From: a virus
Length of the DNA: 23,596 nucleotides
Reading direction: 5' to 3' (one strand)
IMG/VR virus record: IMGVR_UViG_3300032284_000755
Coordinates: 1 to 23,596 of that record
Position 1 is the first letter of the stretch, and every line of letters begins with the position of its first letter. Both the position numbers and the translations under genes were made by a program. Below are positions 1,775 through 23,596 of this stretch, one piece after another. Below the pieces are notes generated by a model that searched no databases, had not been told where the DNA came from, and worked only from the letters and a program-made list of their open reading frames with translations.

Positions 1775-1925
1775 ATAGTTCCTCCACGTAGCGCTTAGGC
1801 GGTACATCAAGCTGCAAGCATAGCTTCTCAATGATTCCCTTAGCGACAGCTCTGGCTTCGTTTAAGCCATCCCTGTATCTATCTTTCATTACAGCGTTAT
1901 ATGTGTCCCAATCAAGTGTTGGCAT
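1755..1925 (-). CDS. Small protein of unknown function (56 aa)
   Basis: A 56-residue ORF (MPTLDWDTYNAVMKDRYRDG...) lies exactly between the glycosyltransferase gene and the 98-residue gene. It overlaps the former by 14 bases and the latter by 20. GGGGAA lies about 6 bases before the ATG on the minus strand. The product is largely helical by composition and charged, with a single cysteine. It fills the only gap in an otherwise continuous operon, which is the main reason to call it real. No family is recognised. Confidence 0.68.
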   Translation of the reverse strand: MPTLDWDTYNAVMKDRYRDGLNEARAVAKGIIEKLCLQLDVPPKRYVEELYGRETD

Positions 1926-2697
1926 TTAGTTTCCCCATCAGTCTGACGCATTCATCAACGCGTTCACGCAGTGAAAGATACCCATATACCTGCGTGTTGT
2001 CAAGGTATTGCGGTATGCCAAGGTTGCGTAGGTTACGGCTGAAAATGACATACTCGTAATCATCCGTGTCATCCATATAGCGGACATGCTCGAAGACATC
2101 CTTGCGTATCAGATAGGTGCAGTGAACCACGTCACAGATGATGTGTCCTGTTATCTCACGCTTGAGCACCTGGTAGTAGCGCATGTCATCAAGGAAGTAG
2201 CCACGCACATTAGCTAACAAATGGTAGTTAGAGTAGGCAGGCTGCTCAGTATCAGCGCACATCAGTAGCGGTGCTACCACCGGCAGGTTGTGGCTAATCA
2301 TGGTGCGTAGCGTATGAGGCGCGACGAAATTATCTACATCCACCACCCAGTAGAAGTCTGCATCTGCCTGCCATGCAGCGTTAATGCTTGTCTCTCGTAT
2401 ATCTCCCAGCACCTTAAAGCGTGTGGGATTCCATTCGTGTACGCCGTAGTCCTGCACCGGTGCTTCTACATCGCGGTAGTCTTCGACCACATGGCGATAC
2501 CACTTGGCGTTCTCATTGCACCAATCGCGCAGTATCTGCTCGGTCTTATCCGTGTTGTTGTTACTACGGATAAAGAGAATCATCCGGTCTTTGGGATAGT
2601 CCCACTTGGACAGTGAGTCCAGCCATGCCGGTAACATCTTTTCTTTCTGCTTAGCCAAGATGGCTACAAATACTAGCGGCTCATTGGTGGCGGTCAT
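1912..2697 (-). CDS. GT-A glycosyltransferase resembling procollagen galactosyltransferase N-terminal domain
   Basis: The start is placed at ATG 2697 (MTATNEPLVF) because AAGGAA precedes it at good spacing; longer versions add an unrelated N-terminus. The 261-residue enzyme has a GT-A layout: an opening strand VFVAILAKQKEKMLP (9-23), WDYPKDRMILFIRSNNNTD (32-50), and the DxD metal and sugar-nucleotide motif VVDVDNF (118-124, D120 and D122). These are followed by LPVVAPLL (138-145), AYSNYHL (154-160) and a C-terminal block DYEYVIFSRN...VYGYL. From memory, the order and wording of these blocks match the first GT domain of animal GLT25D/COLGALT proteins, which act on collagen. The same phage encodes a collagen-like fibre (22294 onward). 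The fold call is strong, the collagen-GT likeness is good, and the substrate is inferred. Confidence 0.8.
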   Translation of the reverse strand: MTATNEPLVFVAILAKQKEKMLPAWLDSLSKWDYPKDRMILFIRSNNNTDKTEQILRDWCNENAKWYRHVVEDYRDVEAPVQDYGVHEWNPTRFKVLGDIRETSINAAWQADADFYWVVDVDNFVAPHTLRTMISHNLPVVAPLLMCADTEQPAYSNYHLLANVRGYFLDDMRYYQVLKREITGHIICDVVHCTYLIRKDVFEHVRYMDDTDDYEYVIFSRNLRNLGIPQYLDNTQVYGYLSLRERVDECVRLMGKLNANT

Positions 2698-2824
2698 CGA
2701 GTTGTTCCTTTCCACACTCGGGGCATGTCCAGCTGTTCCATTCCTTGCCCACCCATACCATGATGTCCTTAAAGTCTTTCTCGCACCAGGTGCAGAAGAC
2801 ATCTAGCTCTGTTTGATAGTCCAT
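2681..2824 (-). CDS. Small zinc-ribbon protein (47 aa)
   Basis: A 47-residue ORF with two CxxC pairs, CTWC (11-14) and CPEC (34-37), the classic four-cysteine zinc ribbon. Its ATG overlaps the stop of the upstream gene (TAATG) and its own end overlaps the glycosyltransferase start by 17 bases, so it sits in a coupled chain. The region between the pairs is Trp/Lys-rich (VWVGKEWNSW). It may bind nucleic acid or a protein partner; the function is unknown. Confidence 0.72.
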   Translation of the reverse strand: MDYQTELDVFCTWCEKDFKDIMVWVGKEWNSWTCPECGKEQLDDRHQ

Positions 2825-6850: not shown

Positions 6851-8788
6851 ATGGCAAAGAAACTCAGCGAGGTGACTGACCGCAGTGCGTACAAGCTAGC
6901 CCCAGGTGCTACCTTGTCCGCCCCCGAAGCCAAGAAGCGCCTTCTCGCGCTGATTGAAGAAGGCGTGACTGTGGAGGACGCTTGCCGCGCAGTCGGCAAG
7001 TCTGTGAAGTCATATGAGTATTACCGCGCTAGCGACCCTCAATTCAAAGAGGCGATTGACCTCGCCCGAGTTATTAAGCGTCGTGCCGGCAAGGTAGCTG
7101 AGGAAGATGCCAATATCAGCTTTGAGGACTTCCGGACCAAGTACCTCTCCAGCCAGACTTTTCCGCACCAGCGCAACATAGTCTCCCTTCTGGAAGAAGG
7201 CCAGCCAGCCTGGCTTCACCCAAACATGATTTACGAAAAGGGCTTTAAGAACTACGTCCTCTGCAACATGCCTCCAGAGCATGCCAAGTCGATGACGGTC
7301 AGTATAGATTATGTGACCTACAGAATTGTCACAGACCCAAATGTAAGAATTAAGCTTGTCTCTAAGACCCAGCAGATGGCCAAGGAATTCCTCTACGCCG
7401 TCAAGCAAAGACTAACTGCGCCCCAATGGGCAGAACTTCAGAGGCGGTACGCTCCAGTGGAAGGCTTCAAAGCCACGGCTGAGAAGTGGACCCAAGACGC
7501 AATTTACATTGAACGCGACTCAGGTGAAAAAGACCCAACCCTTCAAGCCTTGGGTATCGGCGGGCAGATTTACGGTGCCCGTGCCGACTTGATTATTCTT
7601 GATGACTGCGTGACTCTCTCAAACTCCAATGAGTACGAAAAGCAGATTCGCTGGATTCAACAGGAAGTCCTGACTCGTGTGGGACCCACCGGCAAAATTC
7701 TGGTTGTAGGTACACGCGTTGACCCAGTTGACTTGTACCGAGAGATGCGTAACCCAGACCGATACCCTGAAGGGGAATCGCCCTGGACCTACCTAGCTAT
7801 GCCAGCTGTCCTAGAGTTTGCAGAAGACCCAAAGGACTGGACAACGCTCTGGCCTAAGTCAGACCGCCCATGGGCAGGGGATGACACAGAACCAGATGCA
7901 GACGGATTGTATCCGCGCTGGGATGGTAACAACCTCAAGAAGCGTCGTGGTGTCCTTGACCCTAAGACCTGGGCTATGGTCTACCAGCAGCAAGATGTTG
8001 AGTCTACCGCTATCTTTACACCCGAGAATGTACGCGGCTCTGTCAGCGGAATGCGTTCCGTAGGTCCGCTTATCCCAGGCGCACCTGGCCAGCCCGCTCA
8101 GCTTAACGACCAGTACATTGTCTGCTCGATGGACCCAGCCATGTCAGGAGATACATTCTCCGTCGTGCTAGCTGGAGATAGAACTACCCAGAAGCGTTAC
8201 TTGCTGGAAGCCTCACGCATGCCAGCCCCTACGCCTCAGATGATTCGTGACTTGATTTTCAGCTGGACTGAAAAGTACAAGCCTAAGGTCTGGGTAATTG
8301 AGAAGAACGCTTTCCAGCTCTTCCTCACCCAAGACGAACAGATTAACAAGTTTCTTGCCACGCGAGGCATCCGCCTCGTGCAGCACTACACCGGTGCGAA
8401 CAAGATGGACGCCGAGTATGGCGTCGCATCCATGGCACAGCTTTTCGGCACGTTGGACAACCAAGGCAAACACATTAGAGGTTCTAACTTATTGGAATTG
8501 CCCCGTGCCGATAACGAACACATCAAGGCTCTTATCGAGCAATTGATTACCTGGTCTGCCGGCACCAAGGCTAAGCAGGACGGACCAATGGCTCTCTGGT
8601 TTGCAGAGACGCAGATGCGCGACTATCTCAACCAGTCCGGCGCATATGGTGGTTCTTTTGTGAAGAACCCGTTTGTAACAAAAGGACAGCTCGCTAAGCG
8701 TCGAGTTGTGGACTTAGAAGAGTACGCCAAGCTGCAAGAGCAAATGGCATCTAATGGAGGAACCTGGTATGGCACTGGATATAGATGA
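6851..8788 (+). CDS. terL: Terminase large subunit with an N-terminal HTH domain
   Basis: The start is placed at ATG 6851 (MAKKLSEVTD) with AAAAGGA 10 bases upstream; the longer frame begins at a TTG inside a hairpin. The 645-residue DNA-packaging motor has a P-loop PPEHAKSM (141-148), Walker B LIILDD (247-252), coupling motif VVGTR (285-289), and a RuvC-like nuclease half starting near CSMDPAMSGD (424-433) with the conserved Asp. It uses ATP to pump DNA into the capsid through the portal and cuts the concatemer. Residues 36-75 (VTVEDACRAVGKSVKSYEYY) form a helix-turn-helix like that of small terminase subunits, and no separate terS is visible. Its end overlaps the portal start by 20 bases. 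Confidence 0.93.
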   Translation: MAKKLSEVTDRSAYKLAPGATLSAPEAKKRLLALIEEGVTVEDACRAVGKSVKSYEYYRASDPQFKEAIDLARVIKRRAGKVAEEDANISFEDFRTKYLSSQTFPHQRNIVSLLEEGQPAWLHPNMIYEKGFKNYVLCNMPPEHAKSMTVSIDYVTYRIVTDPNVRIKLVSKTQQMAKEFLYAVKQRLTAPQWAELQRRYAPVEGFKATAEKWTQDAIYIERDSGEKDPTLQALGIGGQIYGARADLIILDDCVTLSNSNEYEKQIRWIQQEVLTRVGPTGKILVVGTRVDPVDLYREMRNPDRYPEGESPWTYLAMPAVLEFAEDPKDWTTLWPKSDRPWAGDDTEPDADGLYPRWDGNNLKKRRGVLDPKTWAMVYQQQDVESTAIFTPENVRGSVSGMRSVGPLIPGAPGQPAQLNDQYIVCSMDPAMSGDTFSVVLAGDRTTQKRYLLEASRMPAPTPQMIRDLIFSWTEKYKPKVWVIEKNAFQLFLTQDEQINKFLATRGIRLVQHYTGANKMDAEYGVASMAQLFGTLDNQGKHIRGSNLLELPRADNEHIKALIEQLITWSAGTKAKQDGPMALWFAETQMRDYLNQSGAYGGSFVKNPFVTKGQLAKRRVVDLEEYAKLQEQMASNGGTWYGTGYR

Positions 8789-10550
8789 GTTAGGTATTAA
8801 GGTCCGCAAGCTGCGCGACCACTACCATCTTCGTGATGCCCGCTGGGCAGACCTGCTTTCAATTCGTCAAGGAAATATCCAACAGGTATTCCCTGACCTA
8901 TTCTCATCTGATTATCCAAAGCCTATGGTGGCTAACTTCATCGACATCGCTGCCCGCGACGTAGCCGAAGTTATTGCTCCACTGCCAGCCTTTAACTGTG
9001 ACTCAACTGACGCTATCTCAGACCGCGCTAAGAAGCGCGCTGACAAGCGCACCATGATTGCCGCTGGCTATCGTGACTCCTGCAACTTGCAGACCCAGAT
9101 GTACACAGGCGCTGACCGCTACTTGACCTACGGCATGTTGGCATTCATCATCGAGCCTGACTTTGAAAACAATCGTCCAATGATTCGCTTGGACAATCCA
9201 ATCGGTGCATACCCAGAGTGGGACCGCTTCGGCAAGCTGACGTCCTATACCCGTCGCTACCAGAAGACTGTACGCGAGCTATGCAACGATTTCCCAGAGC
9301 ATGAGTCTGTTATCCGTGGACCTTATGAGGCTCGCAACTCTGAGCGCCTCCTTGAGGTATTCCGCTATGTGGATAAGAACGAAACCATTCTCTTTGTCCC
9401 AGAGCGTAGCAATCTTCTCCTTGACCGCGTAAAGAATTTCATTGACGAGATTCCTGTCGTTATCGCTGTTCGTCCTGGCATTGACTCAGACGAGCATCAA
9501 CGCGGACAGTTTGACGACATCATGTGGGTACAGGTAGCCCGCTCACGCTTTGCTACCTTGCAGCTGGAAGCAGCACAGAAGTCTGTACAGGCTCCATTCG
9601 CTCTGCCTTCCGATGTTAACGTTCTTGAGATTGGCCCAGACGCAACCATTCGCTCTGCTAACCCAGAGAAGATTCGTCGTGTTGGCCTCGACATTCCTAA
9701 CGGCATCTTCCAAGAGTCTGCAACTCTTGACCAAGAGCTTCGTGTTGGTGCACGTTACCCACAAGGCCGCCTCGGTCAGCAGTCAGGTTCTATTGTTACA
9801 GGCCGTGGCGTTGAAGCGCTTATGGGTGGATTTGATACTCAGGTTAAGACAGCGCAGGCCGTATTCGCCGAGTCATTCCGCCATGTTATGCGTATCTGCT
9901 TCCTCATGGATGAGAAGCTCTTTGGTGATGTAGAAAAGGAAGTACGCGGCGTAAATGCTGGCGCACCTTACGAGATTACCTACACACCTAAGAAGGACAT
10001 TGCCGGTGATTACTGGTGCGATGTTACTTACGGCATGATGGCAGGCCTCGACCCTAACCGTGCTTTAATCTTCGGCTTACAAGCTCGTGGTGATAAACTT
10101 ATCTCACGTGATTTCTTGCGTCGTCAAATGCCATGGGAGATGAACGTCTCTATGGAAGAAGAAGCAGTAGAGATTGAGAATCTTCGTGACTCTCTTCTAG
10201 CCGCTGTTTCCTCAATGGCACAAGCAATCCCATCCTTAGCTGCACAAGGACAGGACCCATCAAAGATTATTAACGCAATCGCAGCTGCGATTAAGGGCCG
10301 CCAGAAGGGTGACAATATCGAAGATGTTGTTGCTGAGGCATTTGCCCAACAAGTTTCCCCGGCAGTTGCAGCCGCTGGTGAGGCACAGGCCCCAGGTCAG
10401 GCTCCTGCTGGGGAGCCTACTGCTCCGCAAGGAGCTGCACCACAAGGCGCACCGCAAGGTGGGTCTGCACTACAAAACCTGCTTGCAGGAATTTCATCTT
10501 CTGGAGCGCCGCAGTTAGCTGCGTCAGTTTCCAGACGCTCGCCAGCCTAA
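8769..10550 (+). CDS. Portal protein
   Basis: The start is placed at ATG 8769 (MALDIDELGI) behind GGAGGAACC, inside the end of the terminase gene. The 593-residue protein has the usual portal layout: an N-terminal part with DIAARDVAEVIAP, a wing (YGMLAFIIEPDFENNRPMIRLDNP), a clip/stem region, and a Met/Ala-rich crown region. The C-terminus (about residues 525-580) is a low-complexity Pro/Gly/Gln tail (APGQAPAGEPTAPQGAAP). It forms the dodecameric ring at one capsid vertex where terminase docks. Its position immediately after terL supports the call. The family was judged from gene order and sequence style rather than from a motif search. Confidence 0.82.
   Translation: MALDIDELGIKVRKLRDHYHLRDARWADLLSIRQGNIQQVFPDLFSSDYPKPMVANFIDIAARDVAEVIAPLPAFNCDSTDAISDRAKKRADKRTMIAAGYRDSCNLQTQMYTGADRYLTYGMLAFIIEPDFENNRPMIRLDNPIGAYPEWDRFGKLTSYTRRYQKTVRELCNDFPEHESVIRGPYEARNSERLLEVFRYVDKNETILFVPERSNLLLDRVKNFIDEIPVVIAVRPGIDSDEHQRGQFDDIMWVQVARSRFATLQLEAAQKSVQAPFALPSDVNVLEIGPDATIRSANPEKIRRVGLDIPNGIFQESATLDQELRVGARYPQGRLGQQSGSIVTGRGVEALMGGFDTQVKTAQAVFAESFRHVMRICFLMDEKLFGDVEKEVRGVNAGAPYEITYTPKKDIAGDYWCDVTYGMMAGLDPNRALIFGLQARGDKLISRDFLRRQMPWEMNVSMEEEAVEIENLRDSLLAAVSSMAQAIPSLAAQGQDPSKIINAIAAAIKGRQKGDNIEDVVAEAFAQQVSPAVAAAGEAQAPGQAPAGEPTAPQGAAPQGAPQGGSALQNLLAGISSSGAPQLAASVSRRSPA

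Positions 10551-21952: not shown

Positions 21953-23596
<1,644 letters not shown>

Follow-up and report, generated by a model that had tools for sequence, protein, structure and literature searches.

A stand-alone relative of the N-terminal glycosyltransferase domain of COLGALT1 in phages and bacteria, linked to Thr-rich collagen-like proteins

Introduction

It is unclear where the animal collagen glycosylation machinery comes from. One half of COLGALT1 is reportedly a glycosyltransferase (GT) domain that is dormant. We found that this domain occurs as a stand-alone protein with intact active-site residues in phages and in at least four bacterial phyla, and that it is linked by genome position and gene fusion to Thr-rich collagen-like proteins. 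The stretch under study is a 23.6-kb virus fragment from IMG/VR (IMGVR_UViG_3300032284_000755, positions 1 to 23,596; hereafter the window). It contains genes for phage packaging and the capsid, one sigma-70-like gene and two WhiB-like genes. The gene at 1912-2697 on its minus strand encodes the stand-alone domain, here named P0001, and a collagen-like fibre gene runs into the contig end. The most likely role of P0001 is to help in glycosylating the collagen-like fibre that the phage itself encodes. It is, in our estimate, somewhat probable that P0001 is one of two enzymes glycosylating the Thr-rich fibre of the virion, the other being a GT2 enzyme with tetratricopeptide repeats (GT2-TPR).

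Results and discussion

P0001 is related to the first domain of COLGALT1

The minus-strand frame 2697-1912 is open for 261 aa plus a stop codon. The frame is a real gene, since relatives are encoded at 43 IMG/VR loci (37-97% identity) and the nonsynonymous divergence (dN 0.04-0.15) lies far under the synonymous divergence (dS 0.47-2.3, pairs with unsaturated dS only), indicating strong purifying selection. The preferred start is the ATG at 2697. An in-frame start further upstream, at 2802, was dropped, as the extension runs into the preceding gene, lacks conservation and has no start codon in several relatives. A small Cys-rich, zinc-finger-like open reading frame (ORF; CxWC/CPEC; 2694-2820, minus strand) overlaps the enzyme gene at its start through an ATGA junction, which suggests translational coupling. 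We found no relative of P0001 among GenBank phages and no family for it in PHROGs and NCBIfam. Pfam gave weak GT2 and Anp1 matches, with Glycos_transf_2 above the cut-off.

In phmmer searches of the Protein Data Bank (PDB), P0001 matches human COLGALT1 (GLT25D1; 1.7e-25) and LH3 (PLOD3; 1e-9), while bacterial GT2 enzymes have E values above 0.1. A family profile of the enzyme reaches COLGALT1 at 4.1e-40. The AlphaFold2 (AF2) model (predicted local distance difference test score, pLDDT, 92.9) has a GT-A fold with a DxD motif, and its top Foldseek match is again COLGALT1 (E 6.7e-26; template modelling (TM) score 0.81), followed by LH3, Mimivirus R699, TarS (3.7e-10), SpsA (~1e-9) and RmlT (1.9e-9). 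P0001 corresponds over its whole length, with 28% identity, to the N-terminal first GT domain of COLGALT1, called GalT-N (PDB 9evj, 9u7j), and the match is limited to this domain (residues 11-256 of chain 9u7j). The original prediction had read the likeness to COLGALT from the block order of that first domain. All of its blocks (FVAILAK, WDYPKDR, DVDNF, AYSNYHL and VYGYL) are present, and the profile search and the structural comparison both agree with it. Since COLGALT1 is the nearest solved relative by sequence as well as fold, the best match does not fall among teichoic-acid or lipopolysaccharide (LPS) enzymes (TarS, RmlT, LPS GT25), and COLGALT1 is far ahead of them.

The name procollagen galactosyltransferase, on the other hand, is wrong. 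The C-terminal GT25 domain (PF01755), which is catalytic in COLGALT1, gave no Pfam match in the 261-aa enzyme, and the domain that does match is the one described as non-catalytic. Furthermore, the acceptor of COLGALT is hydroxylysine, and no Lys occurs in the 72 triplets of the fibre, whose repeats have Thr instead. By its domain content, P0001 is thus a homologue of part of COLGALT1 and not a COLGALT.

The residues N46, D50, D120, D122 and H192 are unchanged across 29 phage and bacterial proteins (Table 1). In the phmmer alignment, the DxD motif of P0001 falls on VDADN of COLGALT1, which is its first DxD, and HCTYL falls on VHSTFL; the two proteins have DxD, His and NxxxD motifs in common. 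The role of NNNTD in nucleotide binding is one that we take from GT-A family knowledge. Such invariant active-site residues would be expected of a working enzyme.

Bacterial relatives lie near Gly-X-Thr collagen genes

A scan of bacterial genome contigs with a narrow alignment gave no matches, and a broader alignment revealed 31 bacterial genome loci with relatives of P0001 (about 37-67% identity). Most of the relatives are stand-alone proteins of about 260 aa, and those that are bacterial (36-49% identity) span at least four phyla. The closest two (65-67% identity), from a Comamonadaceae bin (L075) and a betaproteobacterium bin (L076), group with phage proteins in the tree or by score. As the Comamonadaceae sequence nests inside the phage clade, both are probably phage DNA that was binned as bacterial.

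Of 35 windows around the bacterial enzyme genes, 15 contain a collagen-like ORF at a distance of up to about 10 kb, and the 54 control windows taken from these genomes contain none (1.08 Mb; Fisher p 8.5e-8, which is indicative only, since related loci are not independent). The neighbouring collagen ORFs are usually Thr-rich at Y, and the phyla concerned are Bacillota, Pseudomonadota, Chlamydiota and Dependentiae. All four Paenibacillaceae loci that were fetched blind to collagen content had a collagen-like ORF. In Chlamydiota, Gly-X-Thr runs occur in 13/14 genomes with the enzyme versus 23/102 without it (p 5e-7). The difference persists when query-derived genomes are left out (10/11 versus 23/102, p 1.3e-5) and when genomes under 1.5 Mb are left out as well (p 2.8e-4). 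In Paenibacillaceae, the mere presence of Gly-X-Thr was rejected as evidence (6/6 with the enzyme versus 119/195 without, p 0.055), and proximity was used instead because the Gly-X-Thr background is too common. In three Paenibacillus genomes (L089, L093 and L094), in-frame stops break the P0001-like gene, suggesting that it is decaying there.

The gene pair of Clostridioides difficile is a precedent for this arrangement. SgtA, encoded beside bclA3, puts beta-O-linked N-acetylglucosamine on Thr of collagen-like peptides in vitro (PMC7157674). Here too, a bacterial glycosyltransferase gene lies beside a collagen-like gene with Gly-Pro-Thr repeats (PMC7157674). Gene closeness of this kind is seen for the bacterial relatives of P0001 (15/35 versus 0/54), and in the phage group of the window it is seen for GT2-TPR, not for P0001. 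Unlike SgtA, P0001 comes from a phage and resembles the N-terminal domain of COLGALT (COLGALT-N) rather than GT2-TPR. It is the companion GT2-TPR that shares with SgtA its size and a GT-A N-terminal domain, a likeness that does not come from a comparison with the SgtA sequence.

A companion GT2-TPR enzyme

Relatives of GT2-TPR were found in 17/35 bacterial enzyme windows versus 1/54 controls. In Bacillus, Paenibacillus and Sporomusaceae, the enzyme gene stands beside a GT2-TPR gene, with collagen genes before or after them. It is often also beside nucleotide-sugar genes, for example those of mannose-1-phosphate guanylyltransferase or GDP-mannose dehydratase. The link extends to gene fusion: a 933-aa Mesorhizobium protein, encoded near a Gly-X-Thr ORF (Thr in 33/36 triplets), joins GT2, a P0001-like domain and GT25, and GT2 is fused to a P0001-like domain in Methylobacter and alphaproteobacterial proteins, one of which (L081, 95-2899) has a sulfotransferase domain as well. 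In a midpoint-rooted tree, the phage clade and the fused forms are sisters, a rooting that gives no direction of descent between the two.

In the phage group of the window, the GT2-TPR gene follows the fibre gene, in the same orientation, in all 11 loci with downstream DNA. The gap is about 25 bp or less in seven of these and 0.5 to 4.6 kb in the rest. Its absence from the window is probably due to the contig stopping within the fibre. A 32.8-kb contig that is collinear with most of the window (90-94% identity) extends past the fibre and encodes it. In a 136-kb phage (L284), the GT2-TPR gene (7009-8046) adjoins a P0001-like gene (8049-8909). The nearest solved folds of the GT2-TPR model (pLDDT 92.7) are ThuS and SunS (Foldseek 3e-14), which are GT2 enzymes acting on peptides. 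Unlike the proposed role here, ThuS and SunS act on bacteriocin (glycocin) precursors, and they have about 13-15% identity to GT2-TPR. Prolyl 4-hydroxylase has a peptide-substrate-binding domain that binds collagen chains. The TPR region of GT2-TPR matches this domain below threshold (PF23558, 6.6e-5; L261 6107-7171 and L265 7416-8495), and the match was not used, because TPRs match each other generically.

Proposed mechanism

The proposed acceptor is the fibre, which the original prediction had correctly described as a Gly-X-Thr collagen. Its ORF starts with the ATG at 22294, and Thr occupies Y in 52 of the 72 Gly-X-Y triplets in the visible part. GT2-TPR, whose gene comes immediately after that of the fibre in relatives, is more likely the initiating enzyme than P0001. 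We suppose that it would bind the unfolded fibre chain and place the first sugar, whichever that may be, on Thr of the Gly-X-Thr repeats. P0001 would then probably extend this with a further sugar, or modify another site or subset of sites on the same chains. Both enzymes would act prior to closure of the triple helix, with 52 Gly-X-Thr sites on offer in the visible part. Extra sugars on Thr at the Y position could stabilise the triple helix or alter host binding. Mimivirus, which infects amoebae, is a known case of a virus that encodes both a collagen and an enzyme glycosylating it, L230 (PMC9614988). Unlike the proposed action of P0001, that of L230 is on hydroxylysine, for which it has a hydroxylase of its own.

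The original interpretation stands in part: its procollagen-galactosyltransferase reading does not hold, but the claim that P0001 glycosylates the fibre gains independent backing. The link to Gly-X-Thr proteins is seen in the bacterial neighbourhoods, in Chlamydiota, in the fusions and in the GT2-TPR genes by the phage fibres, and the initiating role more likely belongs to GT2-TPR. Several observations weigh against the fibre as the substrate of P0001. In the phage group of the window, a long distance separates the enzyme gene from the fibre, and it is on the opposite strand and in an early-type gene block; every contig of the group that reaches the fibre region has a fibre. In the collagens of two large enzyme-bearing phages, Y is Gln rather than Thr. 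Phage DSL-LC01 has collagens and GT2-TPR, yet no relative of P0001 was found in it. No collagen ORF is nearby in 20/35 bacterial windows, although 25/28 of those genomes have Gly-X-Thr runs somewhere. Finally, the homologous human domain is reported to be non-catalytic (PMC13382579).

A co-occurrence of enzyme and fibre across related phages, which had been suggested as a check, does exist: all 12 enzyme-bearing records of at least 30 kb have a collagen fibre. However, the fibre is also present in relatives without the enzyme, most of whose contigs stop before the expected enzyme position. Because nearly all relatives have a fibre, with or without the enzyme, this comparison among phages alone is uninformative and was dropped.

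Alternative roles

The original prediction also named a host surface target. In this reading, P0001 acts on a glycan or glycoprotein of the host surface, perhaps as a means of blocking superinfection, and the likeness to a collagen enzyme reflects ancestry only. The gene does lie in a minus-strand regulatory block, as had been predicted, together with the two WhiB genes and away from the structural genes. In addition, Foldseek also reaches the teichoic-acid and polysaccharide GT2 enzymes TarS, RmlT and SpsA, and superinfection exclusion has been proposed for glycosyltransferases of Nanopelagicales phages (PMC10202952). However, these matches fall behind that to COLGALT1 by about 16 orders of magnitude, and in bacteria the relatives are clustered with genes for Gly-X-Thr collagens rather than with wall-polymer genes as such. 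We consider a host surface target unlikely.

That P0001 is a catalytically dormant partner, scaffolding GT2-TPR on collagen as GalT-N would in COLGALT1, seems more doubtful still. GalT-N is called non-catalytic in a recent review (PMC13382579), as is the AC domain of LH3 (PMC6082870), a homologue of P0001 that, unlike it, is embedded in a hydroxylase-glycosyltransferase; both are described as scaffolds, and P0001-like proteins are fused or adjacent to GT2-TPR in several lineages. Against this, the metal- and nucleotide-binding residues are invariant in phages and bacteria. Moreover, in an older mutagenesis study the D166A-D168A mutant of COLGALT1, altered at the corresponding first DxD, lost activity (PMC3244457), which contrasts with the non-catalytic description and indicates that the DxD motif of the N-domain matters.

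Glycosylation of phage DNA, proposed in the literature for the glycosyltransferases of the freshwater actinophages E7 and F5 (PMC10202952) and compatible with the early-type block, is very improbable here, as PDB searches by sequence and by Foldseek gave no likeness to known DNA glucosyltransferases and the bacterial relatives sit in collagen loci. Of the three alternatives, DNA modification is the least likely. The dormant partner and the host surface target were ranked in either order, and we follow here the separate estimates, which place the host surface target first.

Implications

If P0001 does act with GT2-TPR on the fibre, phages would own a dedicated two-enzyme glycosylation of a host-recognition fibre, with a bearing on adsorption in abundant freshwater actinobacteria. 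The stand-alone proteins would be a candidate ancestor for the animal COLGALT domain, and they would offer compact enzymes for making glycosylated bacterial collagens. In a broader scenario, which we offer tentatively and hold to be a little short of probable, the COLGALT-N/AC family is an old bacterial and phage family of collagen glycosyltransferases that act on Gly-X-Thr together with GT2-TPR. The silent N-terminal half of the animal enzyme would then be a relic, and phages would sugar-coat their virion fibre with the active form.

Features of the window and related phages

The features of the window are collected in Table 1, where collagen runs were counted at seven or more G-X-Y triplets.

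Table 1. Positions of P0001, its motifs, the fibre and the WhiB-like genes in the window
Feature	Position	Strand	Basis
Stand-alone GT-A glycosyltransferase P0001, 261 aa, relative of COLGALT1 GalT-N and LH3 AC	1912..2697	-	Open frame, phmmer, AF2 model, Foldseek, purifying selection
Motif HCTYL, residues 192-196; H192 a probable third metal ligand	2110..2124	-	H192 invariant
DxD motif DVDN, residues 120-123; predicted metal and nucleotide-sugar binding	2329..2340	-	D120, D122 invariant
Motif NNNTD, residues 46-50; putative nucleotide-binding region by GT2 analogy	2548..2562	-	N46, D50 invariant
Two WhiB-like genes, same minus-strand block as P0001	2964-3227 and 3583-3999	-	Pfam Whib 1.5e-14 and 3.6e-16
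Collagen-like fibre gene, cut by contig end; proposed acceptor	22294..23596	+	Pfam Collagen 3.9e-26; PHROG tail fibre families
First Gly-X-Thr collagen stretch	22390..22848	+	Runs 22390-22533, 22540-22728, 22786-22848
Second Gly-X-Thr collagen stretch (23 triplets, Y being Thr in 87%)	23293..23499	+	G-X-Y run scan

The WhiB-like genes point to an actinobacterial host, and the window is probably that of a freshwater phage. Published freshwater actinophages carry WhiB, sigma factor, glycosyltransferase and collagen-like genes (PMC10202952), and from this shared gene set we infer that several of the 43 IMG/VR loci come from freshwater-type samples. The Gln-rich collagens beside a P0001-like enzyme are encoded at L256 9433-15270 (220/294 triplets) and L259 3739-5751 (36/62), and Ser is common at X in them. 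The cultured freshwater Actinomycetia phage DSL-LC01 (L287) has two collagen genes, GT2-TPR and a tryptophan halogenase, the collagens and GT2-TPR being a few genes apart. In the same phage, a UDP-galactopyranose mutase gene adjoins that of another glycosyltransferase.
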